From NCBI GenBank assembly GCA_017531225.1, contig JAFXLL010000003.1:108893-172892 (forward strand): a DNA stretch of 64,000 bases. Direction: 5' to 3'. Position 1 is the first letter of the stretch. The number at the start of each line of letters is the position of its first letter. The stretch comes from Bacteroidales bacterium (GTDB lineage Bacteria > Bacteroidota > Bacteroidia > Bacteroidales > F082). The position numbers and the translations under genes are program-made. Shown in pieces: positions 7,377 to 24,026 of this stretch. The notes under the pieces are model-generated. The model was not told the DNA's origin. It saw nothing but the letters and a program-made list of their open reading frames with translations, and made no database searches.

Positions 7377-9410
7377 ATGAAAACAAGGATTATCATCACC
7401 ATCATTGCAATGCTGTTTGGGCTACAGGTTTATGCACAAGACGTAAAACGCCCAGACACCTATTATTATAATAGAGGTATTGAATGCCTTCGCGAAGGAA
7501 AAGATTCTGATGCTTATGACTATTTTGAGAATGAAGTGCGTGATAATCCAAAGAATGGATACGCCCATACTTGGATGGCTTATATACTATATAACAATGA
7601 ACTTTATGGCGACGCACTAGCATCTTTGGAAAAAGCAGAAAAGAACGTTCCAAGAAAAGACAAGGAATTTGTCGGCTATGTGCTATCACTACGAGGAGAT
7701 GTATACTATGCTTTGGAAGAAAACGACAAAGCATTGGAGTGTTATGGGAAAGCCATTAAGACAAGCCCTAAAGATACAAATCTTTGGGATCGACGAGCTC
7801 AACTTTATTATGAGATCGGGGAATACGACCTGTCGGACAAAGACTATGACAAAATCATTGAATTAGATCCTTCGGGGGTGATGGGCTATATGGGTAAAGG
7901 GCGTAATGTCAAAATGCAGAATAGATACGAAGATGCCATCGGTTATTTCAATCAAGTGGCAAAACTACATGGCAAAGATTATTCGTCCTGCTACTCTTTC
8001 CGAGCTGAAGCATACGCCGGATTGAAACAATATGAGAAAGCAGCTGACGACATCATTACTGCTTTAAGTATTGATGGCGACGACAAAGCCTTCCATTTAT
8101 TGGGTAGCGTAATGGCAGACTCAGCCTCCACTATAATGACTTCAAAGCTTAAAATCCAACAACTGAAAGAGCCAAATAACTATTATTGGCCTTATTGTTC
8201 TGGAATTGTTTATGAAGAGAGTGCCAATTATAACAAAGCCATTGAATGTTACAAAAAATCAAATGAGATAAACACCACGAGCTTGACCTATGGAAGAATA
8301 GCATCTTGTTATGCGGAATTGGGCGACTATCAAAATGCAATACGTTCCATAGACCAAGCAATCCAAATGGAGCCTGACAAGACAATCAACAAATTATACA
8401 AATCCAACTACGAGTACGATGCAGGCATGACTGACGCTGCTCTTGCCGACATAGACGCATGTATAGTCGAAGTTCCTGATTTTTACTATTTCCATTACCG
8501 AAAAGGATTCTTTGAAGATAATCTGAACATGACTGACGAAGCTATTGAGGATTATTCGACTGCCATTCTTCTCAACCCTGATTACTTTTACTCAAATCTT
8601 GGTCGAGGAGATATGTATTCAAAAAAAGGAATGCAAAAAGAAGCTATGGATGATTACAGAACTGTTGTAAGCAAAGACACTATACCATCTACTGGTTCCT
8701 GCGCACAATATGCTTATTTTGCTTTAGGCGAGAAAGACAAAGCTATTGCATTCAACCAACGTATCATTGATTCATTTCCTAATGACCCAAGTAGCTATTA
8801 TGATGCGGCATGTCTGTATTCCAGAATGGGAGAAAATGGACAAGCCATTGACTACCTAAGAACTTCGCTTGAAAAAGGTTATCGTCGCATTGCGCACATA
8901 GAGCGCGATGACGACCTTGACGTTTTACGAGATACGAAGGAATACCAAGATTTGATTTCAGAATATAAGGCAAAATATACTATAAATGATACCCAAGAAC
9001 ACATTTTACAAGAGAATATAGAAGTCGAAATACCTTTCACCAAAGCGAATGGCGTTACAGAAGTACAATGCACCATCAATGGATTACCATTGCATTTTGT
9101 GTTTGACACGGGGGCAAGTGACGTAACCATGTCGATGGTGGAGGCCACTTTCATGCTGAAGAACAAATATCTAACTCCCTTGGATGTGGTCGGAAAGCAA
9201 AATTACCTCACTGCCGACGGAAACGTCAGCGAGGGTACCATCATCAACCTTAAATCTGTGAAGATAGGTGACCTTGAACTGACCAATGTCCGGGCTTCGG
9301 TGGTAAAGAGCCAAAATGCTCCTCTTCTACTCGGCCAAAGTGTGTTGGGCAGGTTGGGAAAGATTGAGATTGACAATGAGAAGAGGGTGATTAAGGTGAC
9401 GGGAAAATGA
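7377..9410 (+). CDS. Secreted TPR protein with C-terminal retropepsin-like aspartyl protease
   Basis: A 677-residue protein. Residues 1-20 form a signal peptide ending AYAQ-type (LQVYAQD). Roughly residues 25-530 are a string of TPR repeats, recognisable by recurring AxxxYxKAIxxxP patterns such as ALECYGKAIKTSPKDT. The last 130 residues form a single-chain retropepsin-like domain: VFDTGASDVTMS near residues 574-585 supplies the catalytic Asp-Thr-Gly, and LLLGQSVLGRLGKIEID near 642-658 is the usual second half. These proteases work as dimers. Expected location: periplasm. It is first in a same-strand run with the Hsp70 genes, 27 nt before the next start. Its substrate is unknown; membership of the same functional unit is inferred from position only. 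Confidence 0.8.
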   Translation: MKTRIIITIIAMLFGLQVYAQDVKRPDTYYYNRGIECLREGKDSDAYDYFENEVRDNPKNGYAHTWMAYILYNNELYGDALASLEKAEKNVPRKDKEFVGYVLSLRGDVYYALEENDKALECYGKAIKTSPKDTNLWDRRAQLYYEIGEYDLSDKDYDKIIELDPSGVMGYMGKGRNVKMQNRYEDAIGYFNQVAKLHGKDYSSCYSFRAEAYAGLKQYEKAADDIITALSIDGDDKAFHLLGSVMADSASTIMTSKLKIQQLKEPNNYYWPYCSGIVYEESANYNKAIECYKKSNEINTTSLTYGRIASCYAELGDYQNAIRSIDQAIQMEPDKTINKLYKSNYEYDAGMTDAALADIDACIVEVPDFYYFHYRKGFFEDNLNMTDEAIEDYSTAILLNPDYFYSNLGRGDMYSKKGMQKEAMDDYRTVVSKDTIPSTGSCAQYAYFALGEKDKAIAFNQRIIDSFPNDPSSYYDAACLYSRMGENGQAIDYLRTSLEKGYRRIAHIERDDDLDVLRDTKEYQDLISEYKAKYTINDTQEHILQENIEVEIPFTKANGVTEVQCTINGLPLHFVFDTGASDVTMSMVEATFMLKNKYLTPLDVVGKQNYLTADGNVSEGTIINLKSVKIGDLELTNVRASVVKSQNAPLLLGQSVLGRLGKIEIDNEKRVIKVTGK

Positions 9411-9437
9411 AATTTCGAATGATATACTGTAATTAAC

Positions 9438-11012
9438 ATGCTTAACATAATAACAAACAACCCATTCCGAATACTTGGCGTTTATTCCAACGCCAAACCG
9501 GCCGAAATTGTGTCGAATTGCGACGATATGGAGGCGTATTTGAGCATAGGGCAAAATGTTGAATTCGACTTGGACTTGAACAACCTGATGCCCAATGTGG
9601 TGCGCACCGTCAAAACCGTTGCCGATGCCAAAAAGCAAATCAACTTGCCGAAGGACAAACTGAAGTACGCGCTGTTTTGGTTTGTGAAAGACAATTCGTC
9701 GGCTCATGCCATGAACTATCTGAAAAGTGGCGATTTCAACAACGCCAACGACGTTTTTGAGATAGAAGACTCATTTGCCACGCGCATTAACAAGGCCGTG
9801 ATAGCCTTGATTCGAAACGATTTAGGCGTAGCCATCGCCAATGTGGCCGAATTGATACATGACTTTGATGATTTGGGACTACGTGACAATTTCGTAAAAA
9901 CCATTTGTGGCGATGCGTTTTCAATAACAGAAGAGGAGCTTGCGCACCTATATATAGATACACTTCTCGAAGAAGTGGATGCTGCGGAACTGCTCGAACT
10001 GTTCAAGGAGAACAGCGTTTCGCAGGATGATGATGATTATCTGGAAGGAAAAGTTGTTGACAAACCTATTTCCAGAATCAATGCCGAAATTGCTAAAGCG
10101 AAATCTGTACAACAGGACGATGTCGATGCCAATTATCGGGCAGGCAAAGAACTCATGAAAAACACAAAGGCGGACTTGGCAAAAGTGAAAAGCCTTCTGG
10201 TTGCAACCGATATGCAGTACCAAATGCTTGCCGATGGCTTGGCTAATGCTATTATGCAATGTGGTATAAACTATTACAATGCTTCGGAAGATAACGATAA
10301 GATTGAAAAAGCTTTGGAATTGCTAGAATACGCTAGCAAAATTGCAACTGGAAAAATATGTAAGGAAAGGTGTAATAAGAATATAGAGAGTTTAAAAACA
10401 GAGCTGGAAAATGCTGCACCTTTAAATGTTCGGAAAGAAGATTTCAACATCAAACAAGCTTTGGTTGAATTTAGTAAAAAGCCACATAAGATTTCCCATT
10501 CCATTGAATTGATAAAGGCTTGTGCGCCAATTTTGTTGAAAATAAAAGAGACGCTTGGTAAAGATGATCCATACTATTTGAAGATGTCAACATTGATAGT
10601 TAGTGTAGCTCTCAGTTATGTGATAGAAGAAGTAAACATAATTCAAAATAGACCTTTTACTAATCCTGACGACATAAGACCTATTGTCCAAAAAGCCTGG
10701 TGTGCAATGGGTGATATGAATAAACTAGATATGGAGTCTGATTTTAGAAATAATAGATTTAATACCAACTGGAAAACATTGAAGTCATTGGCTATTCGTT
10801 ATGGAGTAGTGAGAGAAACAGAAGATTATGGATGGGCTTTCATAATAGGAGCAATATTGATTCATTTGATATATGGTCTGCTGTTTATGAATACAAAAGA
10901 TGGCTTTTGGGGCGGGGTCGGTATTGGCCTATTTGGTTGGCTTATTCAAATTAATTTTCTTGTCTTAAAAGGCGTTTTTTGGATAATAGACAAAATTAGA
11001 GGAATTAAATGA
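9438..11012 (+). CDS. Membrane-anchored protein with degenerate J-domain-like N-terminus
   Basis: A 524-residue protein. The start (NNPFRILGVYSNAKPAEI) and a segment near residues 55-75 (ADAKKQINLPKDKLKYALFW) resemble helices I and IV of J domains, but no His-Pro-Asp motif is present, so it could not stimulate Hsp70 in the classical way. The middle (80-450) is helical and charged. Residues about 470-515 hold two hydrophobic segments (AFIIGAILIHLIYGLLFM and GIGLFGWLIQINFLVL), so the protein is probably anchored with most of it in the cytoplasm. It overlaps the next gene by ATGA, a sign of translational coupling. Role as an Hsp70 partner is inferred from resemblance and context. Confidence 0.6.
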   Translation: MLNIITNNPFRILGVYSNAKPAEIVSNCDDMEAYLSIGQNVEFDLDLNNLMPNVVRTVKTVADAKKQINLPKDKLKYALFWFVKDNSSAHAMNYLKSGDFNNANDVFEIEDSFATRINKAVIALIRNDLGVAIANVAELIHDFDDLGLRDNFVKTICGDAFSITEEELAHLYIDTLLEEVDAAELLELFKENSVSQDDDDYLEGKVVDKPISRINAEIAKAKSVQQDDVDANYRAGKELMKNTKADLAKVKSLLVATDMQYQMLADGLANAIMQCGINYYNASEDNDKIEKALELLEYASKIATGKICKERCNKNIESLKTELENAAPLNVRKEDFNIKQALVEFSKKPHKISHSIELIKACAPILLKIKETLGKDDPYYLKMSTLIVSVALSYVIEEVNIIQNRPFTNPDDIRPIVQKAWCAMGDMNKLDMESDFRNNRFNTNWKTLKSLAIRYGVVRETEDYGWAFIIGAILIHLIYGLLFMNTKDGFWGGVGIGLFGWLIQINFLVLKGVFWIIDKIRGIK

Positions 11013-11929
11013 TGAAACGATTACTATTGGTGGTGTTATTGTCAATGTTGATTGACAGCATGTCTGCTCAAACTTCAGACAGTCTTACTTTTTTACAACA
11101 TCAGATTTCTGCATTTGAACTTCAATTGCGAAGCATTGAGCAGCGTGATGAGACATTTAATGTTCAATTGAAAGAATTGAAATCACAGGTTGCTAGACTT
11201 TCCGATGAAAACTCCTCGCTTGATGATGCACTTCGGCAAAAGCAAGAATCTTTTGATTCGTTGGCGAGGATTGTTGCTAACAACTCAGCCAATATCAAGA
11301 CCACGGCTGATGAATTAGGAGTTAAAATTCAAACTACCGACAAAGCCGTTTCAAATAATGCAAACAGCATACGAACTAAAACCATATGGGGTGCCGTAGC
11401 CTTTATGCTTGCACTTTTGGCATCGGCTATGGTCTGGCTACTCCATATGAGGGCCCAAAAAACCTCAGATGACAAGATTGCCTTATTGAAAAATCAAGCT
11501 GACGAATTGAACGAGAAGATTGTCGGACAGTTCAGCGATGAAATGAGTGAATTGCAGAAGCTCAGTGATGTATTGAGAAATGCAGGTGGCAACGCTTTGA
11601 CGGAACCAGACCATTCGTTGGTGAAAACTCTTGCCGACCGCATTACTTTTATGGAAATGACGCTCTACCGAATGGACAGCTCAGTGAAAGGACACAAGCA
11701 ACTATCGAAGTCTATTGCGCAGATGAAAGACAACCTTTTGGCTAATGGTTACGAGATCGTGGATATGCTCGGCAAAGAGTATGATGAGGGTATGAAAGTG
11801 ACAGCCAATTTCAATGAAGATGAAAATATTGAGGCTGGTAAGCAGATAATAACAGGTATCGTCAAACCTCAAATCAATTATAAAGGTATAATGATTCAAT
11901 CAGCACAAATAACAGTAAGTCAAAACTAA
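11009..11929 (+). CDS. Coiled-coil membrane protein with GrpE-like C-terminal domain
   Basis: A 306-residue protein. Residues 1-20 look like a signal peptide (MKRLLLVVLLSMLI), residues about 25-115 are coiled coil, and residues about 125-147 form a transmembrane helix (TIWGAVAFMLALLASAMVWL). The rest includes another helical stretch and a compact end with EGMKVTANF, GKQIITGIVKPQINYKG and MIQSAQITVSQ. The spacing recalls the beta domain of GrpE, which follows a long coiled coil and ends RPARVVV-like. I propose a membrane-bound nucleotide-exchange factor for the Hsp70 encoded 16 nt downstream. The similarity is weak and judged by eye, so a neutral call would be coiled-coil membrane protein. Confidence 0.5.
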   Translation: MMKRLLLVVLLSMLIDSMSAQTSDSLTFLQHQISAFELQLRSIEQRDETFNVQLKELKSQVARLSDENSSLDDALRQKQESFDSLARIVANNSANIKTTADELGVKIQTTDKAVSNNANSIRTKTIWGAVAFMLALLASAMVWLLHMRAQKTSDDKIALLKNQADELNEKIVGQFSDEMSELQKLSDVLRNAGGNALTEPDHSLVKTLADRITFMEMTLYRMDSSVKGHKQLSKSIAQMKDNLLANGYEIVDMLGKEYDEGMKVTANFNEDENIEAGKQIITGIVKPQINYKGIMIQSAQITVSQN

Positions 11930-11945
11930 AACACAATAAGGAAAC

Positions 11946-14444
11946 ATGGCACAAGTAAAAATGAAATACGGAATCGACCTCGGTACGACCAATTCCGCCA
12001 TCTGTAGGATGGAGAATGGAGAGCCAACCATAAAAAAGGCTGACGACTTGAAAGACACAATGGCTTCGTGCGTGTCGTGGACCAAGAAGCAAGTTATTAG
12101 AGTTGGACAAGGTGCATACAATGATTTACGTCAAGACAAATCAAGAGCGACGAAAAAGTGGAGTGTTGGAAACGAGAATGTTTTCCTTGAATTCAAGCGT
12201 ACGATGGGACTTGACACAAAATATTCAAGTTCTAATATGGGACGTGATTACAGTTCAGAGGAACTATCTGCTGAGGTATTAAAAGCCTTGAAATCATTTG
12301 TGTCGGAGGATAACGTGAATGCCGCTGTAATAACTATTCCCGCCAAGTTCAAGGCCGATCAGATTGCAGCAACCAAACGTGCGGCCACATTGGCTGGTAT
12401 TGAGCATTGTGAATTGTTGCAAGAGCCTATTGCTGCGGCTATGGCGTACGGCTTAAGCGTAGAAAACAAAAACGGTTATTGGCTCGTTTTCGATTTCGGC
12501 GGTGGAACATTTGATGCAGCGCTTTTGCGTGTTGAGGATGGCGTTATGCAGGTGTTTGATACAGCAGGAGACAACTATCTTGGCGGAAAGAACCTTGATT
12601 TTGCCATTGTGGATGAAATAATTATTCCGTATCTGCAAGAGAACTACAAAATTGATAATATCCTTGCCGACAATACGAAAAAACAGATTTTGCGTGATGC
12701 TATGAAGTTCTATGCAGAGCAAGCAAAGAATCAGTTATCGTTCAAGGATAAATGTGACATCACCTCGCAACTCGATGAGTTTGGCGTTGATGATGATGAC
12801 AATGACATTGAACTTGACATGATTATCACTCAAGATCAACTGAAGGCGGTTGTTGAACCAATCTTCCAAAAGGCGGTTGACATCTGCAGGGATTTATTGC
12901 AACGCAACAATCTGAATGGTTCGCAATTAGATTCGTTAGTTTTGGTGGGTGGTCCTACTCATTCGCCTGTTGTTCGTCAGATGCTGAAAGAGCAGATTAC
13001 GCCCAATGTGGATACCAGCATCGACCCGATGACAGCTGTGGCAAAGGGCGCAGCCTTGTTCGCTTCCACTATCGACAGTGAAGCAAAAGAGGACGTGAAA
13101 GTCGGCACTATTCAATTGGATGTCAAATACAAATCGACAGCGGTAAAGAATGATGCTCCTGTTTCGGTGATTATTGCGCCAAACCAGAGAGATGTTCCAT
13201 CAAAATTATATGTGGAACTTGTGCGCGGCGACAAGGCATGGTCGAGCGGCAAAATGGAGATTGGAACTGGTGTAGTAGTCAAATGTAGCCTTAACGAGGG
13301 AAAAGCAAATGCATTCTCGGTAAATATCTATGATGAAAAAGGTACGGCATACCCTTGTTTCCCTAATGAAATAAACATAATTCAAGGTGTGAATGTGGGC
13401 GCGGCAGTGTTACCGTATAACATCGGTATAGAAGTTACTGACACGGAACAAGACAAGCAAGTGTTTGTTCCTTTGAAAGGTTTGGAAAAGAACCAGCAGA
13501 TACCAGCTGTAGGTGTGCGCAATGGGCTGAAAACCATGCGACAACTTCGTCCTGGAATGTCAGAGGACAAATTGGTTATTCCCATTTATCAAGGCGAAAA
13601 CAACGCGGAAGGCACCAATGCCATTTACAACGACCATGTATTTGACGTAGAAATAACAGGCGATGATGTGCCGCAACTGGTACCTGCCAATAGTGATATT
13701 GACATCACAATAAAAGTTGACCGCTCGCAATTATTGAAATTGGAAGCAACATTCCCCGTGATTGGCGAAACAATTGAAAAAGATGTCGATGTAAAGGCAC
13801 GTCAAGGTGTTGATGAGAGAGATTTGAAGAGTCGTTTGAGCGAGGCAAAACAAAAAATGTCCGCACTTTGTTCTGCTGATTCTGTATCACAATCGGAGAT
13901 AGAGGAAGCAGAAAAAATGCTGAATGATGTGGAAAGCCGTTTTGATGGAGAAAAAAACTCAGAAGATGGCAAGATGCACTTGTTAGCTGATTTGAGGCGT
14001 GCGTTCCTAAAGATGGAGGAGGTTGAAAAACGCCACGAATGGGACACCCTTGAAGCCGAACTACGCCATGAGTTTGACCGTCTTGAAAGAGCCAACAACG
14101 ATCTTGGTAACAAACACGACCAAGAAGTGAATGAATTGCGTAGGCAAACCGATGCTGTCATCCGCAGCCGTGATGTGAAAATGGGCCGCAAAGTGCTGAA
14201 AATGATTGATGAAGTTTTCTTCAAAGTCACATTCATTTACCAACTGATAGGCTTTATTAAGCGACATGAAGAGAACTTCGGACTTTATGCATGGCGCAAT
14301 GCGAGTCAAGCTCGTCAACTTCTCAACCAAGGCAAAAGCATGATTGCTAGTGGAAATATCGATGAGCAGCAACTACATGGCATTTGTGTAAGTGTGTTGA
14401 ATTTGCTGCCGGAAGATGAGAGAGATGGAGGAATTGGAATGTAA
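11946..14444 (+). CDS. Hsp70 family chaperone, long variant
   Basis: An 832-residue protein with the Hsp70 ATPase signatures: YGIDLGTTNSAICRME at residues 8-23 (phosphate 1), VFDFGGGTFDAALL near 179-192 (phosphate 2) and LVLVGGPTHSPVVRQML near 331-347 (adenosine). The substrate-binding half is diverged from DnaK, and an alpha-helical tail of about 220 residues makes it nearly 200 residues longer than DnaK. It lacks the EEVD-type end. It is flanked by a GrpE-like and a J-like protein, so it is probably a dedicated second Hsp70, not the housekeeping chaperone. The ATPase motifs are intact, so it should be active. Confidence 0.92.
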   Translation: MAQVKMKYGIDLGTTNSAICRMENGEPTIKKADDLKDTMASCVSWTKKQVIRVGQGAYNDLRQDKSRATKKWSVGNENVFLEFKRTMGLDTKYSSSNMGRDYSSEELSAEVLKALKSFVSEDNVNAAVITIPAKFKADQIAATKRAATLAGIEHCELLQEPIAAAMAYGLSVENKNGYWLVFDFGGGTFDAALLRVEDGVMQVFDTAGDNYLGGKNLDFAIVDEIIIPYLQENYKIDNILADNTKKQILRDAMKFYAEQAKNQLSFKDKCDITSQLDEFGVDDDDNDIELDMIITQDQLKAVVEPIFQKAVDICRDLLQRNNLNGSQLDSLVLVGGPTHSPVVRQMLKEQITPNVDTSIDPMTAVAKGAALFASTIDSEAKEDVKVGTIQLDVKYKSTAVKNDAPVSVIIAPNQRDVPSKLYVELVRGDKAWSSGKMEIGTGVVVKCSLNEGKANAFSVNIYDEKGTAYPCFPNEINIIQGVNVGAAVLPYNIGIEVTDTEQDKQVFVPLKGLEKNQQIPAVGVRNGLKTMRQLRPGMSEDKLVIPIYQGENNAEGTNAIYNDHVFDVEITGDDVPQLVPANSDIDITIKVDRSQLLKLEATFPVIGETIEKDVDVKARQGVDERDLKSRLSEAKQKMSALCSADSVSQSEIEEAEKMLNDVESRFDGEKNSEDGKMHLLADLRRAFLKMEEVEKRHEWDTLEAELRHEFDRLERANNDLGNKHDQEVNELRRQTDAVIRSRDVKMGRKVLKMIDEVFFKVTFIYQLIGFIKRHEENFGLYAWRNASQARQLLNQGKSMIASGNIDEQQLHGICVSVLNLLPEDERDGGIGM

Positions 14445-14460
14445 AAAAAGAGAGAATATT

Positions 14461-15078
14461 ATGGTATCAAAAGGAAGAAGTATGCTTCGGGCTTATATCG
14501 AAGATACAAGTGAATACTTATCGCATCTGTTAAATAGGTATCCAAACCTATTGGATGAGTGGATGTATGATAAAGAAAACGAATGCAGAAACATTGCAAA
14601 AGATTCTTCTGACGGAGATGTTGAAGTTGAAACAAGTATTTATCATTCATTGTTTCAAGGATATGAATCTTTTGGAGAGACGGAAGTACTATTTTATGAT
14701 GCTATGTTCATTATGGTATATTCATATTATGAAAGCGTATTGACCAAATTGTCAAAAAAATATGGATGTGATAACAGGCCAAGTGCCATTTGTGAATGTA
14801 ATCATACTCAACTGAGCAAAGAAGCACTTGAAAACACGTCATTTCTGTTTCATAAAATATTTATTCTCCGAAATCAGTTCTGCCATAACTTTTTAGGGAC
14901 AATCGGAGCAAGAGATGAATCTGATAAACAAATTGTAAACTATTTGATTCATGAATATCCCAATATGATACGCTTTGATGACACTTCAATTCACATTCTA
15001 AAAAGAGAATTTGTTTCTGAAGTTCTAGAAAAGGAAAGGTTTGTCCTTAATGAACTAATCATAAAACTTAAGTTATAA
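14461..15078 (+). CDS. HEPN-like protein (RX4H motif)
   Basis: A 205-residue helical protein. ILRNQFCHNF (Arg137 to His142) matches the RX4-6H motif of HEPN RNases, with the common Asn after the Arg. About 50 residues earlier, FIMVYSYYESVLTKL resembles the preceding HEPN helix. No other domain is visible. An in-frame ATG at 14416 would overlap the Hsp70 end by 29 nt; I prefer 14461, which fits the gap better. If active it would cut RNA, as in toxins and anti-phage effectors. It is the only likely nuclease in the Hsp70 gene set. The motif is short, so confidence is moderate. Confidence 0.55.
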   Translation: MVSKGRSMLRAYIEDTSEYLSHLLNRYPNLLDEWMYDKENECRNIAKDSSDGDVEVETSIYHSLFQGYESFGETEVLFYDAMFIMVYSYYESVLTKLSKKYGCDNRPSAICECNHTQLSKEALENTSFLFHKIFILRNQFCHNFLGTIGARDESDKQIVNYLIHEYPNMIRFDDTSIHILKREFVSEVLEKERFVLNELIIKLKL

Positions 15079-15109
15079 CCAGCCATATAATAGATTAACA
15101 TGTAATATT

Positions 15110-15649
15110 ATGGACATCTCAAATTACGAAACGGAGATTATTAAGGCTACACAAAATGTTTCCCGTGAGGTTCTTTCTTTATACGAAAAATCAGAAGAAA
15201 TACTTGACCAATTAATTGGGGCCAAAGCCTTGACAGATAGTGAGGCTTTGGCTTATACGACATTGGCACTGACGAGAGAATGCGTTCCTATATTGAATCA
15301 GATTAAACAGGTAATTGGAGCGGAACATCAATTGTACGGGCTCCAATCAGCAAAATTGTTCAATATTGTTATTAATTCCAGCAGTCATTGGACGAAATTA
15401 TTGACGCTTCATGTGAAAATGAAAACGGGAAAGACTTCTAGTGATGATACACAAAAGCAAATATCAGCTTATACTCTGTGTATGGAGGAAATGTCTAAAT
15501 TAACATTCTTGGGAGAAAACAAAAGTGAATTTGATAGGAAATACAAAGAGATGTGTGGAAAAGAAGTTGGGCCGTCAACAAACAAATCTGGATGCATGAC
15601 AGATGTAGCATTTCTTATTGTTTCTATTGTATTATTAAGTTTAATATGA
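15110..15649 (+). CDS. Small C-terminally anchored protein of unknown function
   Basis: A 179-residue protein with no recognised domain. Residues 1-155 are mainly helical and polar. The last 20 (CMTDVAFLIVSIVLLSLI) form one hydrophobic segment ending at the C-terminus, as in tail-anchored proteins. It lies 31 nt after the HEPN gene and 7 nt before the CpXC gene. It is AT-rich like its neighbours. It is likely part of the same operon, perhaps holding a partner at the membrane. Confidence 0.7.
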   Translation: MDISNYETEIIKATQNVSREVLSLYEKSEEILDQLIGAKALTDSEALAYTTLALTRECVPILNQIKQVIGAEHQLYGLQSAKLFNIVINSSSHWTKLLTLHVKMKTGKTSSDDTQKQISAYTLCMEEMSKLTFLGENKSEFDRKYKEMCGKEVGPSTNKSGCMTDVAFLIVSIVLLSLI

Positions 15650-15656
15650 AACAATC

Positions 15657-16181
15657 ATGAGCAAATTAGTTGACGCAACAATCACATGCCCTCATTGCGG
15701 CAAAGAATACCCGACAAAGTTGTTTAGAACCATTTGGGGCGAACATGATTCAAATCGCAATATGGTTTTGAATGACAAAATCAATGTTCCCAAATGCCCT
15801 CATTGTGGCTTCTCATTCAAAGCACCCTATCCATTTATGTATGTAGATGTCCATACAGGGTTTGCCGTTTGGTGGGAGCCTCAATATGATGCTGGGATAG
15901 ATGCTGATGCGCAAGGTTATGCACAAATGTTTGGCGCAAGCAGCTACTATGCAACTGCCCCAAGAATTGCAGACTGGGATGAGTTCAAACAAGTTATTAG
16001 AGAGTATTATCAAGGAAAGCGTGTTGGCGGCAAAATCGAGAAAATGGACGTCGGTGCATTAAAAAGGAGTATGGAGACACAGAAGAAAAGTGGCTGTTTA
16101 GGTTCTTTCGTGATAATCACCCTTGCTTCGATAGCGGCATTGGGCGGTACGTGCTATGGTTTGTATCACCTTTTAATCTGA
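15657..16181 (+). CDS. CpXC zinc-ribbon protein with C-terminal membrane anchor
   Basis: A 174-residue protein. Two CPHCG motifs, at residues 9-13 (ITCPHCGKEYP) and about 44-48 (PKCPHCGFSF), form a zinc ribbon of the CpXC type, followed by the family's FxxPYPFMYVD segment. The C-terminus has one transmembrane stretch (GCLGSFVIITLASIAALGG) near residues 143-165. CpXC proteins are conserved but of unknown function. Position between the HEPN/tail-anchored genes and the kinase-AAA gene suggests an adaptor. The stop lies 8 nt before the next chosen start. Confidence 0.78.
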   Translation: MSKLVDATITCPHCGKEYPTKLFRTIWGEHDSNRNMVLNDKINVPKCPHCGFSFKAPYPFMYVDVHTGFAVWWEPQYDAGIDADAQGYAQMFGASSYYATAPRIADWDEFKQVIREYYQGKRVGGKIEKMDVGALKRSMETQKKSGCLGSFVIITLASIAALGGTCYGLYHLLI

Positions 16182-16189
16182 GTTGCCTT

Positions 16190-17953
16190 ATGCCCACCCT
16201 CAATAAACAGCAATCAATCGGGAGTTACACCGTCGCTTTCCCCATCAAGGATAGCACCTACGCCGAGACGTATCGCGTGAAAGATGTATCGGGAAAGAAT
16301 TATTTCCTGAAACTCTTCAACTACGCCAAACTGCACCATACTCAGTTTGACGAGAATGGAAACGTTTTGGAACTCGTCATCTCAAAGCGACTAAACCATC
16401 CAAATCTAACGCACTACCATGACAACGGAGAATTGGTATTGAACGGACAGAAAATGGCTTACATAGTCTATGACTTTATCAGTGGCGAGACGCTTGCCCA
16501 AAAGACAGGACGCGAAAGAGGTTGCTCCGTATATCAAGCCAAGCAATATGTATTGGGAGTGTTGGAAGGCGTAAAGTTTTTGCACAATCTTCCCGAACCT
16601 GTCATTCACAATGAACTGACAACGGAGAATGTAATGCTTGACATGAAGGACAATATGCCTAAAATAATTGATTTTGGTTATGCTCGATTTTTGCCACAAA
16701 ATAGGAGCACATTCCAGAAAGAAGGCTTGAATCCCTATTATATGGCGCCAGAGGCATTCAATGGTGTGTTTACTGCACAATCAGACCTCTATTCCGTTGG
16801 TGCAATGTTGTATCATCTGCTGTTTGGTATGCCGCCATATTATGTGAGCATCCCTCAATATCAAGCCGACCGTAGTTCTATGGTTGACATTCTTTTGAAA
16901 GAGCGACAAAAGCCTCTGCCAATGCTTATCAAAGACAAGCCCAACATGGATGAGCAATTAGAAAATACACTGCGGAAAGCTTTGGCATGCAATATTGAAG
17001 ACCGTTTTAAAACCGCTGACGAGTTCTTCAAGGCCTTGAACAATGAAATGATGGTGGAGGCATTGCCACACCAAACCAAAGTCAAGCCTAAACGAGAAGA
17101 AGTCAAACGCTCCAAAACAGGTAATGGCTTTGCCGATGTGGCAGGCATGGATGAATTAAAGGAACAGATGCGCTTGGAAGTGATAAATGCATTGAACAAT
17201 CCGGAGGAATATAAAGGATATGGCATTACCATACCCAATGGCATGTTACTATATGGTCCTCCTGGTTGTGGCAAAACCTATTTTGCAAAAAAGTTTGCCG
17301 AGGAAGTGGGATTCAATTTTTTGGTAAAAACACCAGCTGACTTGAAAAGCCGCTATGTAAACGCAACGCAAGAAAATATAAAGGCCATGTTTGAAGAAGC
17401 ATATGAAAATGCTCCTACTATTATTTTCATAGACGAAATAAACGAGCTTGTTCCAGACCGCAATGCCGATATTCATGAAATGGCAGAAAGTGCTGTCAAC
17501 GAAATGCTTTCGCAAATGGATAGAACGGGCGAAAAAGGCGTGTTTGTTATTGGAGCAAGCAATCTCCCACAAAAGATTGATACTGCAATTCTTCGAGCTG
17601 GACGATTGGAAAAGCATTTTTATGTTGGGCCGCCTGATTTTACCGCAAGAAAACTATTGTTCGAAATGTATCTAAAAAATCGCAAGGCTTTGGACTTCGG
17701 GATTGATTACGAGAAGTTAGCCAGAATGACCGAAAACTATGTTTCTGCGGACATTCAATTGATTGTTGATGATGCTGCAAGACAAGCTTTGTATAGAAAA
17801 GAAAAGATCACGATGCAGATTCTCGAAGAAACCATCAAGAATAAAAAGCCTTCTTTAAGTGTTGAACAAATTAATCAATACAATATCCTAAGGGATAATT
17901 TTGAAGGCAACGCTGAAAAGAAGCCGGAAAGAAAACCGATAGGATTTAAATAA
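16190..17953 (+). CDS. Protein kinase-like domain fused to AAA+ ATPase
   Basis: A 587-residue fusion. Residues 10-290 follow the Ser/Thr kinase fold with Lys41 (YFLKLF), DFG at 161-163 and an APE motif (MAPEAF), but the catalytic loop reads VIHNELTTENVML (139-150) in place of HRDLKPEN, so the catalytic Asp is Glu142 and the loop Lys is Thr. It is probably a weak kinase or pseudokinase. Residues 315-560 are a classical AAA+ module: Walker A GPPGCGKT (356-363), Walker B IIFIDE (411-416), sensor ASNLP and RAGRLEK, giving an arginine-finger region as in FtsH/Cdc48 relatives. I start at ATG 16190, after the CpXC stop. Expected role: an ATP-driven remodelling machine steered by the kinase-like domain. 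Confidence 0.85.
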   Translation: MPTLNKQQSIGSYTVAFPIKDSTYAETYRVKDVSGKNYFLKLFNYAKLHHTQFDENGNVLELVISKRLNHPNLTHYHDNGELVLNGQKMAYIVYDFISGETLAQKTGRERGCSVYQAKQYVLGVLEGVKFLHNLPEPVIHNELTTENVMLDMKDNMPKIIDFGYARFLPQNRSTFQKEGLNPYYMAPEAFNGVFTAQSDLYSVGAMLYHLLFGMPPYYVSIPQYQADRSSMVDILLKERQKPLPMLIKDKPNMDEQLENTLRKALACNIEDRFKTADEFFKALNNEMMVEALPHQTKVKPKREEVKRSKTGNGFADVAGMDELKEQMRLEVINALNNPEEYKGYGITIPNGMLLYGPPGCGKTYFAKKFAEEVGFNFLVKTPADLKSRYVNATQENIKAMFEEAYENAPTIIFIDEINELVPDRNADIHEMAESAVNEMLSQMDRTGEKGVFVIGASNLPQKIDTAILRAGRLEKHFYVGPPDFTARKLLFEMYLKNRKALDFGIDYEKLARMTENYVSADIQLIVDDAARQALYRKEKITMQILEETIKNKKPSLSVEQINQYNILRDNFEGNAEKKPERKPIGFK

Positions 17954-17959
17954 TTAGCT

Positions 17960-18451
17960 ATGAATACAGGAGAATTATACCTAAAAACCGCCTTCGCTTG
18001 CATGGCGTGCGATGGCGAGATCGCAAATGAGGAACTCGAACTAGTAAAACACTTTGCTACCAGTTCAACCTTGTTTGAAGGACTTGAAATCGAGAAACAG
18101 CTCAATGAATATGTTGCTGAAATAAATGTCCAAGGACTTAGTTTCTTGGCTGGATACATTAATAGCATCGTCAATGCGCAGCTTACCGAACAACAAGAAT
18201 TGGATCTTGCAAAAATTGCCATCAAAATGATTGAGGCAGACAAAAAGATTGAGTATTCGGAAATCAGCTTTTTTAAGCGAATTCGCAGCAAACTCAGGGT
18301 GAGCGATGACAAGCTTCTTGAAATCTTCAAGGATGAAACATTGTTTGACAAGTTTCCTGAGGTGAAACCTGAGGACTTTTTGTTGCCAGACATTATAGTA
18401 GATGATGATTTGAATTGGAATGTGACGTTTGAGAATATTGAGCTATTATAA
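17960..18451 (+). CDS. TerB-like protein
   Basis: A 163-residue acidic helical protein. The start (LKTAFACMACDGEIANEELELV) carries the Asp-Gly-Glu-Ile motif typical of TerB-like domains, and the related KMIEADKKIEYSEISFFKRI near residues 92-111 is the second half. TerB-like domains often accompany membrane-linked stress and defence gene sets, where they are thought to bind metal or scaffold. It begins 7 nt after the kinase-AAA gene and is the last gene of the run; nearly 500 nt of non-coding DNA follow. Confidence 0.75.
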   Translation: MNTGELYLKTAFACMACDGEIANEELELVKHFATSSTLFEGLEIEKQLNEYVAEINVQGLSFLAGYINSIVNAQLTEQQELDLAKIAIKMIEADKKIEYSEISFFKRIRSKLRVSDDKLLEIFKDETLFDKFPEVKPEDFLLPDIIVDDDLNWNVTFENIELL

Positions 18452-18937: not shown

Positions 18938-21900
18938 ATGAAAAACGTATTAAATATTTTTTTCTCTTGGCAAACGTCTTCAAAGACAGACAAACTCAAC
19001 AATAAAGAGTTTATACTGTCGTGCATTCAGGAGGCCGCTAATAAGGTGAAAGGAAGAAATGAATTGAAGGATGTAGACTTCGAAGTCCTTCAAGGTACAG
19101 GTGGTGAACCTGGCACACCAGATATGATTGCCACTTGCTTGAATAGGAACGACCATTGCCATATTTTCATAGCGGATATTTCGGTAGATAAACAATTCAA
19201 TAAGATTCAATGTTGGGTTAATAAACAACCGGATTTGAGAGAACGTCCCAACGAAAACGTGATGTATGAGTTGGGGCGTGCTGATGGTCATCTCTCTTAT
19301 AAGCAAGTGATACATGTCGCGAACACTGTGTTTGGCGATGTGAGCAAGAACGACTATTTGAGACCTGTTGATATCCGTGATAAACGTAGACCTATTACTT
19401 TCTGTCTTACTGCCAATGATGCTCCAGACGCTGAGAAGGTGAAGAGTGATTTGGTTGAGATCCTGAAAAAAGCGATTAGAAAATCAGCTATTGCGGCATT
19501 GGAACATATCCACGAAGAGTTAAAACCCTTCGACAATTGTGAGCAGGTTGTTAAAGAGCTAAAGTTTCAGAAGAAATTCATCTTTAACGATAATCTTAAG
19601 AGTATAAAGCAGGCAATCTCGGAAAACAAAGGAATCCTGAGAGTATTGGGCGTGAACGGTGTTGGGAAAACCAGATTGGTCATTGAGACTTTATTGAAAG
19701 AAGAGTCAGATATTCCCAAACTGTATTGTGATTGCATACTTAATACGGATTCAGAGATTATTAAGACAACGACCAAAATACTAGAAAATCAACTGGCGGT
19801 TGTTTTAATCTTAGACAATTGCGAAGTAGGTCTATTTTCGAAAATCGTAGAAATCTACAAGCGGAAGAATGCCAAGAACAGGTTGTATGCTATTGTTGAT
19901 GATCCAAAAGAACCTGTTAGTAGAGAAGATTATTCAGTATCAAGATTTGAATACGCTTATGAGGATGTGGTGGAAGGAATCATCAAAGGACTTTATGGGA
20001 AGCAGGATGAAGTAAGTGCCAGAATAAAAGAGTTTGCCAGTGGTAATCCGTTGTTTGCAGTTCAGGCGATTGATTGCGTAAAGAAAACAGGTGATATTAG
20101 AGATTTCAATAATCGGAAACTTATTGCCAACCTCCTTTCTGCTCCGGAAGGAAGTGAAGAAAGAATAATAGCTACCACACTATCATTATTCTCAACAATT
20201 GGGTTTGATGGAGATGCTCATAAAGAAGTAGAAGCCATAGCGTTAAACAAAAACATAACGGGGCTGAACGGTGATTCCGTGATGTTGATTAATAAGTTTG
20301 ACTCACTGATTACCCAATATCTTGAGCGGAACATTATGCAAAGGGTAGGTGTATTCGTACGTTTCCGTTCGCCTGTCTTTTCAAAGATGCTGAATGATGA
20401 ATGGTTCGAGAAATGCACGGCCAAGCAGCTTGAGAGCATTATATATACGTTAGTTCAAATGAGTATGGTAGTCAACCTTGTCCCTCCTTTCTTTGAAAAA
20501 ATTAGAGATACAGAAGGAGGAGGACAAGTAATGGGGCTGTTGAACGAACTGCTACAGCCAGGAAGATTGCTCACAAAAAGGGAGTTCCTAAATACGGAAG
20601 TAGGTTCCAAGATATACCGGTCTTTAGTGGACATTGCGCCAGACTTGGTTTGTGATAGTCTTTTTCAAACACTTGGTGGGTTGGGATTGGAAGAATTGAG
20701 ACAAATAAGAGAAGGCCGTAGGGAATTGGTGTGGACTTTAGAGAAACTGTGCTACAAACCGGAGACTTTTTTGAAGGCTGCCAGACTTATGTTAAGATTG
20801 GGATGTTCGGAAGTGGAACATATATCAAACAACGCTACGGGCCAGTTTGTTTCGCTGTTCCCAGTGCGATTGCCCACCACCTCTGTCTCGTTGTCTGACA
20901 GATTGAGCTTTCTAAAGTCTGAAATGAATAGTCAAGAAGAGAAACCCGTATTGATGAAAGCATTGAACAGGGCACTCTGTACAGCCAATTTTATCCGTTT
21001 CGGAGGAGATGTGACTATTGGTCAGCAAACATACACATTTTATGACCCGACCAATTTCCAAGAGATAATTGACTACATTACAGGTTGTCTGGACTTGTTG
21101 CAAAAAGAGATTGACGGTAATACGGCCTATCGGGAGGCTAGTATCAAGATGTTGGCTTCGAACTTCCGTTCATTGAACGCTTATGGCCTATTTGATCTTA
21201 TTATGCCTAGAATGGAGATAATTGCAGCCCAACTTAACAATGATTGGGATGATTTGCTCCATATATTGCATTTTGCGAGAAAGGATGCGGAAATAAAGTT
21301 GAACGATCAACGCTTACAGAGGATTGAACAATTAATAACCTCATTAAGCAAAACGGATTTAGTAACACGTTTCGCTCAAGTGGAGAGCTATGAATGTAAT
21401 GACTATTTTGGATTGTCGGATAAAGAACATACCGATATAGTTAATGCGAAATACGAAAAAATAGCAGAGGAGGTAGTGGCTCAAAAACTATATAGTAAGG
21501 AGCTATTAAAAGGGATATTTCAAGCGCAGACCTTTTTGCCACAAGTTTTTGCCATAAAGCTGTCATCGCTGAGCAGCCCAGAAGAACAGCTGACTTTTGT
21601 ATCAGACTCAATAGACTTAATGGAGGACAGGGCTCATAGTATTTTTGTTTATTACGTGAAGGATGTCAGCGAGGATGTGTTTGCCCGAATAGTTGCACTT
21701 ATTGAAGAAAAGGGAAAACAATGGCTTTTGTTCCCGTTGGTGGCCATAAGAAATTATGACTTTAACCACCCATACGTGGATAAACTGTTCGGTTTGGCAC
21801 AGAGGAGAATTGCTGATACAGAATGGTTTGTCACTTATTGGCATTATGTGCGACTGGATAGGCTGAGCACTCCTGAAGCTGTAGGTCTACTTGCACGGGT

Positions 21901-22741
21901 CTCCACTTTGCCGGATTCCTTTATTGTTGCATTGCACATGGCGATGTCACAGTACCTGAGTAATACTGTCAAGCATCCCGAGATGGATAAATTATTTGAG
22001 GATGAGATGATTAAAAGGGCAGATGAAACAGCTACCCTTATTATGAATCCTCATTATTCACATATCCTAGGGTTTTTGCTTTCAAACGAAGAACGAAAAG
22101 ATTTAGCCAAGGCCTTGGCTAAGGGGATTTTTAAACATGTCATTGAATCTGACCAACCTTCTTTGAGGTATGAGGTGGAAAAGGTTCTTCAAGTTCTGTT
22201 TGAAAAGTATTTTGACATAACATGGGACGAGATGGCTGGTCTGATGACGGGTGAAGATGGTGACGATAACTATATTAAGTTTTACTTTGCCTTTGGATTC
22301 AGCATGATTCACAATCCATTCCCTGCGTTGATTTTCAGGATGGAAAACCAGAAGATGGTAATGGACTGGTGTAAGTCACATCCAGAAGGGGCTTATAAGG
22401 TAATGTCATTGGCGCCTCTTATTGACGGTGATAAGCTTTCTGCGCCTGTAATGGAGATAATTGACAACTACGGAAGCGACAAACTTGTAAGAGCGGCATT
22501 AAGTGACAAACTGGGTTCGTTTTCGGGGTCTTTTTCAACCTACTATACAAGAGCAGAACTGATAGAGCCATTAACAAAACATTACAATCCGGATGTTAGC
22601 ACTTGGGCCTCATTAGAAATTGGCCGTTTGAAGCATTATGCTGAGCAAAGTCAGAAGATAGAGGACAATTTCATGCTCCCAGGAAGACTGCCCAATTATC
22701 AGTGGACTTTAAACGATTTGGAAAAATATGAAACTGAGTGA
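18938..22741 (+). CDS. TIR-like domain fused to STAND-type NTPase, probable defence sensor
   Basis: A 1267-residue protein. Residues 1-130 look like a TIR-like effector: NIFFSWQTSS, then GTPDMIATCL, HIFIADIS and NVMYELGRA, where Glu111 sits in the place of the usual catalytic Glu. An NTPase follows, with Walker A GVNGVGKT (238-245) and Walker B VVLILDNCE (288-296). The remaining 900 residues are helical repeats of the kind used for ligand sensing in STAND proteins. Expected action: sensing an invader, oligomerising, then NAD+ or nucleotide attack by the TIR-like part. The stop overlaps the ApeA-like start by 14 nt. The domain order is clear; the exact TIR subclass is not. Confidence 0.78.
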   Translation: MKNVLNIFFSWQTSSKTDKLNNKEFILSCIQEAANKVKGRNELKDVDFEVLQGTGGEPGTPDMIATCLNRNDHCHIFIADISVDKQFNKIQCWVNKQPDLRERPNENVMYELGRADGHLSYKQVIHVANTVFGDVSKNDYLRPVDIRDKRRPITFCLTANDAPDAEKVKSDLVEILKKAIRKSAIAALEHIHEELKPFDNCEQVVKELKFQKKFIFNDNLKSIKQAISENKGILRVLGVNGVGKTRLVIETLLKEESDIPKLYCDCILNTDSEIIKTTTKILENQLAVVLILDNCEVGLFSKIVEIYKRKNAKNRLYAIVDDPKEPVSREDYSVSRFEYAYEDVVEGIIKGLYGKQDEVSARIKEFASGNPLFAVQAIDCVKKTGDIRDFNNRKLIANLLSAPEGSEERIIATTLSLFSTIGFDGDAHKEVEAIALNKNITGLNGDSVMLINKFDSLITQYLERNIMQRVGVFVRFRSPVFSKMLNDEWFEKCTAKQLESIIYTLVQMSMVVNLVPPFFEKIRDTEGGGQVMGLLNELLQPGRLLTKREFLNTEVGSKIYRSLVDIAPDLVCDSLFQTLGGLGLEELRQIREGRRELVWTLEKLCYKPETFLKAARLMLRLGCSEVEHISNNATGQFVSLFPVRLPTTSVSLSDRLSFLKSEMNSQEEKPVLMKALNRALCTANFIRFGGDVTIGQQTYTFYDPTNFQEIIDYITGCLDLLQKEIDGNTAYREASIKMLASNFRSLNAYGLFDLIMPRMEIIAAQLNNDWDDLLHILHFARKDAEIKLNDQRLQRIEQLITSLSKTDLVTRFAQVESYECNDYFGLSDKEHTDIVNAKYEKIAEEVVAQKLYSKELLKGIFQAQTFLPQVFAIKLSSLSSPEEQLTFVSDSIDLMEDRAHSIFVYYVKDVSEDVFARIVALIEEKGKQWLLFPLVAIRNYDFNHPYVDKLFGLAQRRIADTEWFVTYWHYVRLDRLSTPEAVGLLARVSTLPDSFIVALHMAMSQYLSNTVKHPEMDKLFEDEMIKRADETATLIMNPHYSHILGFLLSNEERKDLAKALAKGIFKHVIESDQPSLRYEVEKVLQVLFEKYFDITWDEMAGLMTGEDGDDNYIKFYFAFGFSMIHNPFPALIFRMENQKMVMDWCKSHPEGAYKVMSLAPLIDGDKLSAPVMEIIDNYGSDKLVRAALSDKLGSFSGSFSTYYTRAELIEPLTKHYNPDVSTWASLEIGRLKHYAEQSQKIEDNFMLPGRLPNYQWTLNDLEKYETE

Positions 22742-24026
22742 CCCCTTTGAGTTTAAAGGATACTGGTGGAAACCAGATGCCCCTGATAATAAGGTGGCCG
22801 GTGTGCTTTCATATCTGCCAGGAGAAAGCATTTCTCTTGAACTAATAGGCTCTTTGGACAAAGAGGAGGATGCTGTCGTTTCTTTCTTAAAAAAATCGGA
22901 TGAACTAATTATCCACGGAGCATTAGAGAATGCCAAACGGGTAACGCTGGTGAAATGTTATCCATCAGGAAGGATGAATATGTCAAGTTCATTTCCAATC
23001 ATCAGATATACTTGCATTTACTGCATTATCGGAAGGCATTATACTGGGATGGATGATGGCGGGCGATTTCGGATGGAGGTTCATTATCCAGAATTGTCTT
23101 ATTGGTGCCACCCTGGGATGTTGAGGGAAACGTTATTGGATGATAAAGAGCATAATGGACAGATTATAAGTTTTTCCTTTGACGCCATTGTTGGTGGTAA
23201 AACGTTGGATGAGATTAAACTAGATGACGGTTTCAAAATTCAATTTAAAGCAGGGGCAAGCCTAACGAGTGATCATGCTTTGCTGAATAATAATATAGGG
23301 CAGTCAACTTGGTTAGAGATTTCAAGTGATGAAACAGTGTCGTTCAATAAGTTGCTATCACATGCCTATCAATTTGATGAATTTCTTTCGATGGCTACTT
23401 TGAGGGTCGTGGAAGCATCTGAGGTATTATTCTATGATGAAGATTATTATCAGGAGTTTGGGAAAGGAAACAAACATTATCATTCCATCTCTTTCATTTC
23501 GAGTCATTGGAGAGGAAAAGATAAGGAGAAGGTGGATTCAATACGATTCCTTTTTGGGTATGAAGCGATTAAGGATCGGTTTGGTGAGATAATTCGGTCA
23601 TGGTTTTCGGACAAGAACGATATGTATCCCGTGAGGAATAACCTTGTTGACAGTTTGGAAAAGAAAAGAGTGTTCAGCAATATGGACTTTCTGATATTGG
23701 TAAGAGCGCTTGATGGGTACTGTATTAGGTCGAGAATTAAGGGTAACATCAATATCCGTATGAATACCGTTATAGAGAAGTTTTCAGAAATATTACGTAT
23801 AAAGAAGGACGACATCAATGTAGATGAGTTGGTGGATTCCAGAAATTATTATGCTCACTACATGCCACGGGCAAGTAAGAAGCATATTCTTGACGGTTTT
23901 GAACTGCATGATTTAACTCAGAAAGTTCGACGGCTCGTTATATGCTGTGTGCTTTCCGATTTGGGTTTCGATAATAAAGCCATAGATTCCATATTCAATA
24001 ATAGTAATAGTAGATATATTACATAG
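22728..24026 (+). CDS. ApeA-like HEPN defence protein
   Basis: A 432-residue protein. The start (EFKGYWWKPDAPDNKVAGVL) has the Gly-x-Trp-x-x-Pro pattern of the ApeA N-terminal domain, followed by a beta-rich region to about residue 260. The C-terminal part is helical and contains VDSRNYYAHY, where Arg372 and His377 make the RX4H motif of HEPN RNases. ApeA is an established single-gene anti-phage protein that acts on RNA or tRNA. Here it is translationally coupled to the TIR-STAND gene and 7 nt ahead of a PD-(D/E)XK gene, so it may act as one effector of a three-protein system. Confidence 0.75.
   Translation: MKLSDPFEFKGYWWKPDAPDNKVAGVLSYLPGESISLELIGSLDKEEDAVVSFLKKSDELIIHGALENAKRVTLVKCYPSGRMNMSSSFPIIRYTCIYCIIGRHYTGMDDGGRFRMEVHYPELSYWCHPGMLRETLLDDKEHNGQIISFSFDAIVGGKTLDEIKLDDGFKIQFKAGASLTSDHALLNNNIGQSTWLEISSDETVSFNKLLSHAYQFDEFLSMATLRVVEASEVLFYDEDYYQEFGKGNKHYHSISFISSHWRGKDKEKVDSIRFLFGYEAIKDRFGEIIRSWFSDKNDMYPVRNNLVDSLEKKRVFSNMDFLILVRALDGYCIRSRIKGNINIRMNTVIEKFSEILRIKKDDINVDELVDSRNYYAHYMPRASKKHILDGFELHDLTQKVRRLVICCVLSDLGFDNKAIDSIFNNSNSRYIT

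Follow-up and report, generated by a model that had tools for sequence, protein, structure and literature searches.

We analysed a 64,000-nt stretch (the window) of contig JAFXLL010000003.1 from a Bacteroidales bacterium (GCA_017531225.1, F082), and within it a group of genes at positions 7377–18451 that includes a long, divergent Hsp70. The nine open reading frames (ORFs) that a sequence-only reading had described here, on one strand and separated by short gaps, were all confirmed on the plus strand, with intergenic distances of 27, −4, 16, 16, 31, 7, 8 and 6 nt in order (the longest being 31 nt), assuming homologue-guided starts for the HEPN-like gene (14461) and the kinase-AAA+ gene (ATG at 16190, not GTG at 16151). 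Comparison with related loci upheld the proposal of a coherent Hsp70-based set but not that of nine fixed genes, since what recurs is a five-gene core, encoding a J-like protein, a membrane coiled-coil protein with a GrpE-like domain, the Hsp70, a probable pseudokinase-AAA+ fusion and a TerB-like protein (core 1 to core 5), plus a slot of exchanged cargo between the Hsp70 and AAA+ genes (Table 1). Clear Pfam or NCBIfam support was found for the TPR and aspartyl protease protein, the Hsp70, the kinase and AAA+ fusion and the CpXC protein. The canonical grpE and dnaJ genes of the host genome sit on a different contig, so the cassette is extra to the housekeeping co-chaperones.

Table 1. Genes of the cassette and its immediate surroundings in the window (TM, transmembrane segment).
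Feature	Position	Strand	Support
Periplasmic TPR protein with C-terminal clan AA aspartyl protease; peripheral, non-core	7377..9410	+	Pfam TPR and gag-asp_proteas, 8.5e-18
Core 1, J-like protein: N-terminal NPFRILGV.. region, helical middle, C-terminal anchor	9438..11012	+	
Core 2, membrane coiled-coil protein with GrpE-like domain	11009..11929	+	
Core 3, Hsp70 with long divergent C-terminal half	11946..14444	+	HSP70 3.8e-68
Slot, HEPN-like protein with R-X4-H motif	14461..15078	+	HEPN_Cthe2314 E 0.015, under cut-off
Slot, tail-anchored protein	15110..15649	+	Terminal TM 161-179
Slot, CpXC zinc-ribbon protein with C-terminal TM	15657..16181	+	CpXC 3.5e-13
Core 4, probable pseudokinase-AAA+ fusion	16190..17953	+	Pkinase 8.2e-32, AAA 2.6e-35
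Core 5, TerB-like protein	17960..18451	+	TerB 19.3 bits, under cut-off 24.4
Neighbouring anti-phage-type genes (PD-Lambda-4_A-like, ApeA-family), outside the cassette	18938..24026	+	Profile matches

Gene maps revealed the order J-like, GrpE-like, Hsp70 and kinase-AAA+, on one strand, at 18 of 20 Bacteroidota loci (the window, L002, L003, L004, L022, L023, L024, L025, L027, L029, L030, L042, L046, L047, L048, L049, L106 and L107). The 20 are the Bacteroidota loci with a complete Hsp70 gene, contig fragments (L026, L031, L109, L142 and L143) being excluded; the close relatives L002, L003 and L004 came from a scan of public genomes, a profile of the coiled-coil gene was run against 393 genomes of the order (15 matching) and 395 of the phylum (6 matching), and plasmid-borne relatives were located by tblastn. 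Six proteobacterial relatives (L043–L045 and L100–L102), with no kinase-AAA+ fusion, fall outside this count. A TerB-like gene follows core 4 in 15 of the 18 ordered cassettes, the exceptions being two in which the contig stops within 170 (L027) or 530 bases (L049) and L025, where it is missing. Departures from the common layout include a DUF6602 gene that separates the J-like from the GrpE-like gene in L023, two J-like genes in L107 and a differing gene order in L110. A rearranged version, with TerB-like, J-like, another and GrpE-like genes in this sequence, occupies a truncated contig of the genome that carries L027 (L031:644-5385).

Within the 393 genomes of the order, the profile search found the cassette-type GrpE-like coiled-coil gene in 12 and a weaker coiled-coil relative, in other operons, in three more. 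At E ≤ 1e-80 the kinase-AAA+ protein had matches in 18 of the same genomes, 15 of them covering both domains and three the AAA+ part. The kinase-AAA+ fusion accompanies the GrpE-like gene in 11 of the 12 genomes, always at E ≤ 1e-140, and only those 11 reach this limit, which was chosen post hoc after the hits had been seen (next hit, 1.5e-138); four other two-domain matches lie at 1e-138 to 1e-107. The TerB-like gene was detected in 11 of the 393 genomes, ten of them among the 12 and the eleventh at a contig end. Among the 12, G387 (L028) has neither AAA+ nor TerB-like gene and G218 (L025) has no TerB-like gene. Fisher p values for co-occurrence with the GrpE-like gene were 2.2e-17 (15 two-domain genomes) or 5.0e-16 (all 18) for kinase-AAA+ and 3.3e-17 for TerB-like, values that are overstated because the sampled relatives come from one order and are not independent. 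The scattering of homologues against which the sequence-only reading had set its proposal was not seen, and we are nearly certain that the five-gene core is a coherent unit.

The contents of the slot differ in all six close cassettes. The HEPN-like, tail-anchored and CpXC proteins of the window are replaced by a different tail-anchored protein and a CpXC protein in L002, by two other small proteins in L003 (which has, in addition, a Sel1 protein between AAA+ and TerB), by a HEPN-like and a membrane protein in L004, by a 78-residue protein and a CpXC protein in L106 and by two other membrane proteins in L107. In DNA alignments, matching sequence lies on either side of the replaced stretch in L002 and L003. 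Identity between the window and L002 is 85% up to 14449, five bases beyond the Hsp70 stop, and resumes at 81% from 15608, corresponding to the final 42 bases of the tail-anchored gene, whose replacement in L002 resembles the window protein in the anchor only; with L003 it is 78% up to 14446 and again 78% from 16188, two bases ahead of the AAA+ start. CpXC homologues occur in the slots of L002 and L106 (54% identity for the latter) and not in those of L003, L004 and L107. L004 and the window encode homologous HEPN-like proteins (26% identity, 5e-20) that share R-X4-H, which we take to be an RNase motif, the window protein scoring 15.7 bits against HEPN_Cthe2314 (cut-off 27.1). The suggested pairing with a possible RNase applies to only two of the six close cassettes, no HEPN-like protein being present in the slots of L002, L003, L106 and L107. 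Upstream, a homologue of the TPR-aspartyl protease gene immediately precedes the cassette in L002, L003 and L106, that is, in four of six close loci counting the window, and was not seen when L004 and L107 were mapped. Neither the aspartyl-protease gene nor the three slot genes of the window (HEPN-like, tail-anchored and CpXC) belong to the conserved core.

In the Hsp70, the best stretch of the Pfam match spans residues 9–384 and the DnaK model likewise covers 9–384 only, with ATPase motifs kept in 20 of 20 homologues (judged by eye). A full-length profile of the Hsp70 family aligned nearly end to end with the six proteobacterial relatives, which are encoded on plasmids of Sinorhizobium, Pseudomonas, Aminobacter, Polaromonas, Vibrio and Shewanella; identity to the window Hsp70 was 55% for L106, 51% for L107, 38% for L110 and 48% for the Haliscomenobacter protein. 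The J-like protein gave a score of 30.3 (hhalign) against canonical J domains over 15 columns only, the best of 50 shuffles reaching 19.4. A hydrophobic stretch marks its C-terminus in 14 of 20 homologues, and its AlphaFold2 model contains helical repeats at ~180–455, with a predicted local distance difference test score below 50 for the J-like region. An orphan J-like protein (by eye; L113:1121-1798) is encoded in the genome that carries L028, in the control stretch holding a type I restriction system.

Core 2 has a signal sequence or anchor, a coiled coil that would lie in the periplasm, one TM (predicted from hydropathy in 20 of 20) and a GrpE-like domain predicted to be cytoplasmic. This last domain is colinear with canonical GrpE over 91–92 columns (scores 27.7 and 28.3; best of 50 shuffles 22.6). 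Short proteobacterial proteins matched both the core 2 domain (49.3; shuffles 16.8) and GrpE (29.0; shuffles 16.7), and core 2 together with these short forms reached 38.6 against GrpE, a figure without shuffle control. Core 2 attains 10.8 bits against PF01025 GrpE (cut-off 25.8), and the profile comparisons support remote homology only. The Hsp70 set appears tied to the membrane, as had been proposed, but the full chaperone cycle proposed with it would be an atypical one, given the J-like proteins considered below. Other GrpE-like membrane relatives (E 5e-14 to 6e-23; L034:8873-10156, L035:11378-12439 and L032:458-1666) directly precede a gene of ~172–182 residues, GldL-like (PF22827) in L034, the sole one tested, and this setting resembles a gliding or type IX secretion operon (by eye).

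The kinase-like/AAA+ fusion of the sequence-only reading has solid matches in both halves, but its kinase is probably inactive: 14 of 16 homologues, among them the window protein, have another residue in place of the HRD Asp, so that 'pseudokinase' is the better term, and DFG is altered in 4 of 16. The AAA+ half retains Walker A in 16 of 16 and the Walker B DE in 15 of 16. A C-terminal hydrophobic-GF motif ends 17 of 18 kinase-AAA+ proteins (IGF in 14), and a GF-type motif also ends the Shewanella AAA+ protein and genus paralogues elsewhere. One such second family member (L137:8248-9912, L138:8280-10016 and L139:8325-10067) has a ~134–138-residue partner and no adjacent Hsp70; it too ends in IGF and, in two other members of the genus, adjoins a gyrB-like gene (by eye). 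The host genome holds a second, weaker kinase-AAA+ copy, which lies near the same metabolic genes and has one TGA inside the match. For core 5, RefSeq labels the Haliscomenobacter homologue as TerB family. A small membrane protein is encoded near the TerB-like gene in L024 (9167-9487), L046 (16973-17308), L047 (14226-14525) and L048 (3979-4281), that of L047 matching DUF6804 (1.7e-35) and the other three being alike by eye.

The cassette is sparsely distributed and changes its surroundings. Its Hsp70 was detected by profile in 3 of 61 genomes of the genus (E ≤ 1e-150) and in 5 of 174 of the family (E ≤ 1e-100), all five within the genus. L002 shares the cassette and a similar upstream flank with the window; four similar tandem ORFs on the minus strand at 46-2963 of the window, one of which was tested (2292-2963, DUF6266), also have matching DNA upstream of the L002 cassette. 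The flanks of L106, L107 and L110 are unlike those of the window and recombinase-like genes adjoin L024 and L048 (all by eye). A complete cassette lies on plasmid pHALHY02 of Haliscomenobacter hydrossis, beside brxL and pglZ (L042), and the Shewanella relative sits after tnsE of a Tn7-like element.

Beside the window cassette, the proposed anti-phage-type operon is real (ApeA_NTD1 1.5e-41, HEPN_Apea 4.7e-14, PD-Lambda-4_A 1.7e-21). The sites that cassettes occupy are varied, as a variable island would have it, but L002, with the same cassette, has no DNA match to the window's anti-phage-type genes. Downstream of the ApeA-type gene lies an ORF (window:26012-27670) whose product combines Schlafen AlbA_2 and HATPase_c_4 domains; the available text of a survey of bacteriophage exclusion (BREX) names Schlafen-family proteins that carry a minimal histidine kinase among those linked to BREX (PMC12839542). 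We compared flanks of 19 cassette loci (102 proteins) with 16 control stretches of the same contigs (123 proteins), excluding L002 (same site as the window), two control proteins (L118:3839-11290 and L126:5668-8925) and ORFs without a stop in the stretch or shorter than 150 residues. Recognised defence genes lay within 6 kb in 8 of 19 loci and 1 of 16 control stretches (p 0.018, becoming 0.07 without the two weakest cases, L022 and L110, or 0.06 with one more positive control). The positive loci were the window (PD-Lambda-4-like, ApeA), L022 (type II restriction enzyme-like), L029 and L042 (BREX), L030 (TOTE domains), L047 (type I restriction-modification (RM) and ThsB), L049 (NACHT) and L110 (LeoA-like), and the sole positive control had a type I RM system (L113). 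Case matches left uncounted were RTasDUF1848 (L028), HEAT-ARM (L042), PDC-M16A, PDC-S68, RtcR-like models and the DUF6602 gene of L023. Control PADLOC matches were traced to a UvrD-like helicase in L111 (38 families, housekeeping by eye), the type I RM system in L113 (7 and 47) and a subtilase in L121 (1), with two control families untraced. Enrichment of defence genes near cassettes is suggestive, not firm.

The strongest case of a defence context is L029 joined with L144, where one strand carries brxA, brxB, brxC, the cassette, two small genes, pglX, two further small genes, zorA, zorB, zorE, RT_UG19 with RTas1465, pglZ and brxL; Zorya II and a defence reverse transcriptase are here housed, like the cassette, inside a BREX operon. 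The Polaromonas relative lies ~4 kb from zorA.

From this context we consider a defence or defence-accessory role likely, and we lean slightly towards reading the cassette as a mobile, membrane-anchored, chaperone-gated defence module, with its mechanism a matter of conjecture. In such a module, the J-like protein would bring the dedicated Hsp70 to the inner membrane, where the GrpE-like domain would control its ADP/ATP exchange, and the coiled coil of core 2, in the periplasm, could report envelope disturbance, for example upon phage entry. The Hsp70 would keep the slot proteins inactive (here the HEPN-like putative RNase and two membrane-anchored proteins), and altered exchange, or phage proteins competing for the chaperone, would release them, with the AAA+ ring as a remodeller, the pseudokinase and TerB-like parts as regulators and abortive or dormancy-type protection as the outcome. 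Where the slot is empty, the effector would be elsewhere or would be the AAA+ machine itself. The most specific form of this idea, an immune system with its own complete Hsp70 cycle and pseudokinase-AAA+ ring, envelope sensing and interchangeable slot effectors, is possible but doubtful.

A number of observations weigh against the chaperone-gated defence module. The main difficulty for its mechanism is the HPD motif, absent from the first 100 residues of all 20 J-like homologues; the J-like protein might then only recruit the Hsp70, or a housekeeping J protein might assist. The TerB, HEPN and GrpE assignments fall under the curated Pfam and NCBIfam cut-offs for the window proteins. Core 1 to core 3 are present in L028 and L110 but core 4 and core 5 are not, relatives of the kinase-AAA+ protein are also found without an Hsp70, for example near the gyrB-like gene, and beyond the close relatives the slot is empty, with Hsp70 and AAA+ genes adjacent. 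As to the defence role, which had been suggested from context and which fits the setting of some loci, no recognised defence gene lies within 6 kb in 11 of 19 loci, and L004 sits among metabolic genes (by eye). The flank comparison is itself delicate, as its p values indicate: case flanks were scanned more than controls, scoring was by hand, and raw PADLOC tallies at E ≤ 1e-15 were similar, with 103 families in cases and 95 in controls, 25 of each being listed. The non-independence of the sampled genomes, noted above, belongs here as well.

Those 11 loci speak instead for an envelope or membrane-protein quality-control and stress cassette on mobile elements, in which a membrane Hsp70 and AAA+ pair would insert, unfold or remove membrane proteins, the slot proteins would be clients or adaptors, and proximity to defence genes would reflect shared genomic islands. 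That the core consists mostly of chaperone or AAA+ parts, that a TM or anchor is predicted for 9 of the 13 proteins in the slots of the six close cassettes, and that GrpE-like membrane proteins also adjoin a GldL-like gene would all fit such a role. It accounts poorly, however, for the sparse and patchy distribution, for a location within a BREX operon shared with Zorya II and a defence reverse transcriptase, and for cargo that differs in all six close cassettes, and we regard it as unlikely, if the most serious of the alternatives.

The same BREX setting could point to an accessory that assembles, disassembles or thresholds its neighbour system (BREX, Zorya or type I RM) and is not a stand-alone defence: in L029 the cassette has brxC on one side and pglX on the other, and in L042 it adjoins brxL. 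A threshold-switch role of chaperones in conflict systems has indeed been put forward (PMC7159879, available text). Yet the neighbour system varies by locus, none being recognised within 6 kb in 11 of 19, and the close cassettes carry variable cargo of their own, which makes this explanation distinctly improbable. Least probable, and in our estimate very unlikely, is a selfish, toxin-antidote-like maintenance module of plasmids and islands whose slot proteins would be toxins restrained by the chaperone. Such a module would accord with the one complete cassette located on a plasmid, with the recombinase-like genes that adjoin L024 and L048 (by eye), with the occurrence of relatives on plasmids and on a Tn7-like element, and with HEPN-like cargo, but slot cargo is often absent, a core of ~7.5 kb is large for an addiction module and the slot toxins are putative.

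If the cassette is a chaperone-gated defence module, one chaperone chassis could arm many different effectors, and a portable unit with its own Hsp70, AAA+ partner and slot for exchanged cargo would make chaperone-gated immunity directly testable. A named carrier is Haliscomenobacter hydrossis DSM 1100, plasmid pHALHY02 (HALHY_RS33400 to RS33420). Such a module would likewise point to a function for Hsp70, TerB and AAA family genes that are annotated without one on plasmids and among defence genes.

In the open-access PMC literature searched, and in defence catalogues up to PADLOC 2.0.0 (2023), we found no description of this gene set, in agreement with the earlier view that the combination was undescribed. 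Its parts have relatives in several known systems. With the housekeeping DnaK-DnaJ-GrpE machine it has three roles in common by resemblance, as well as conserved Hsp70 ATPase motifs, and differs in its membrane anchoring, the lack of HPD, the divergent C-terminal half of the Hsp70, the AAA+ and TerB-like partners and its sparse occurrence. The kinase half matches the PADLOC model of PD-T4-6 (2e-37) and the AAA+ half that of IetA (1.1e-34), each match covering most of its model. PD-T4-6 is an active stand-alone Ser/Thr kinase, and IetAS consists of the AAA+ protein IetA and a subtilisin-like partner, IetS. In the cassette protein both halves are fused and the HRD Asp is replaced, for which reason identity with PD-T4-6 was rejected; no subtilase family appears among the Pfam matches listed for the nine window proteins, and with NCBIfam the protein falls far short of the cut-offs, reaching 100.8 bits against 510 for IteA and 95.1 against 460 for MAD6. 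Nor were TerC, TerD or TerE of the Ter stress system among the matches listed for the nine proteins and ten neighbours scanned.

As for BREX, the cassette may lie within a BREX operon, BrxC and PglZ genes surrounding it in L029 with L144, while no BREX component, BrxC and PglZ included, is among the Pfam or PADLOC matches listed for the window cassette proteins. The words hsp70, dnak, chaperone, terb and zorya do not occur in the available main text of the BREX survey (PMC12839542), nor chaperone, dnak, hsp and terb in the available part of the DefensePredictor paper (PMC13092281); that of a death-domain paper mentions HSP70 in a reference and, for oyster proteins, as a fused domain (PMC8195603). 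A chaperone does take part in phage sensing by bNACHT25, which, according to the available text, needs host DnaJ rather than a dedicated system (PMC12169576). CoCoNuT, a predicted defence operon, resembles the cassette in associating an Hsp70-like protein, CnuD, with HEPN proteins. It is defined, however, by a McrB-type GTPase and CnuC, its Hsp70-like proteins are predicted to be poor ATP hydrolysers at best, whereas the ATPase motifs of the cassette Hsp70 are conserved, and a membrane GrpE-like protein is not named in the part of that paper available (PMC11090510). Neither a McrB-type GTPase (NxD) nor CnuC/McrC is among the Pfam and NCBIfam matches listed for the nine window proteins.

The nearest precedent is the HSP70/GrpE/DnaJ theme of the GAP1-N2 GTPase-centric conflict systems, in which, in the available text, an HSP70 is joined by GrpE and a DnaJ-domain partner with a proposed near-membrane role (Kaur et al. 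2020, PMC7159879). Of this trio, the cassette has a clear Hsp70, a GrpE-like domain recognisable through profile comparison only and a J-like protein without HPD. L110:15367-19900, which follows the reduced cassette of that locus, encodes a LeoA-like protein, a 425-residue Hsp70-like protein and two GTPase-like proteins (by eye), a group reminiscent of the conflict systems with GTPases and HSP70 described by Kaur et al. Among the Pfam matches listed for the nine window proteins, up to 25 each for the TPR, CpXC and kinase-AAA+ proteins, there is no GTPase or GAP1 family. GAP1-N2 systems are built on GAP1 and zinc-ribbon GTPases, their HSP70 theme being described mostly from actinobacteria and firmicutes (PMC7159879, available text), and, unlike them, the Bacteroidota cassette has a cargo slot and encodes both a pseudokinase-AAA+ fusion and a TerB-like protein.

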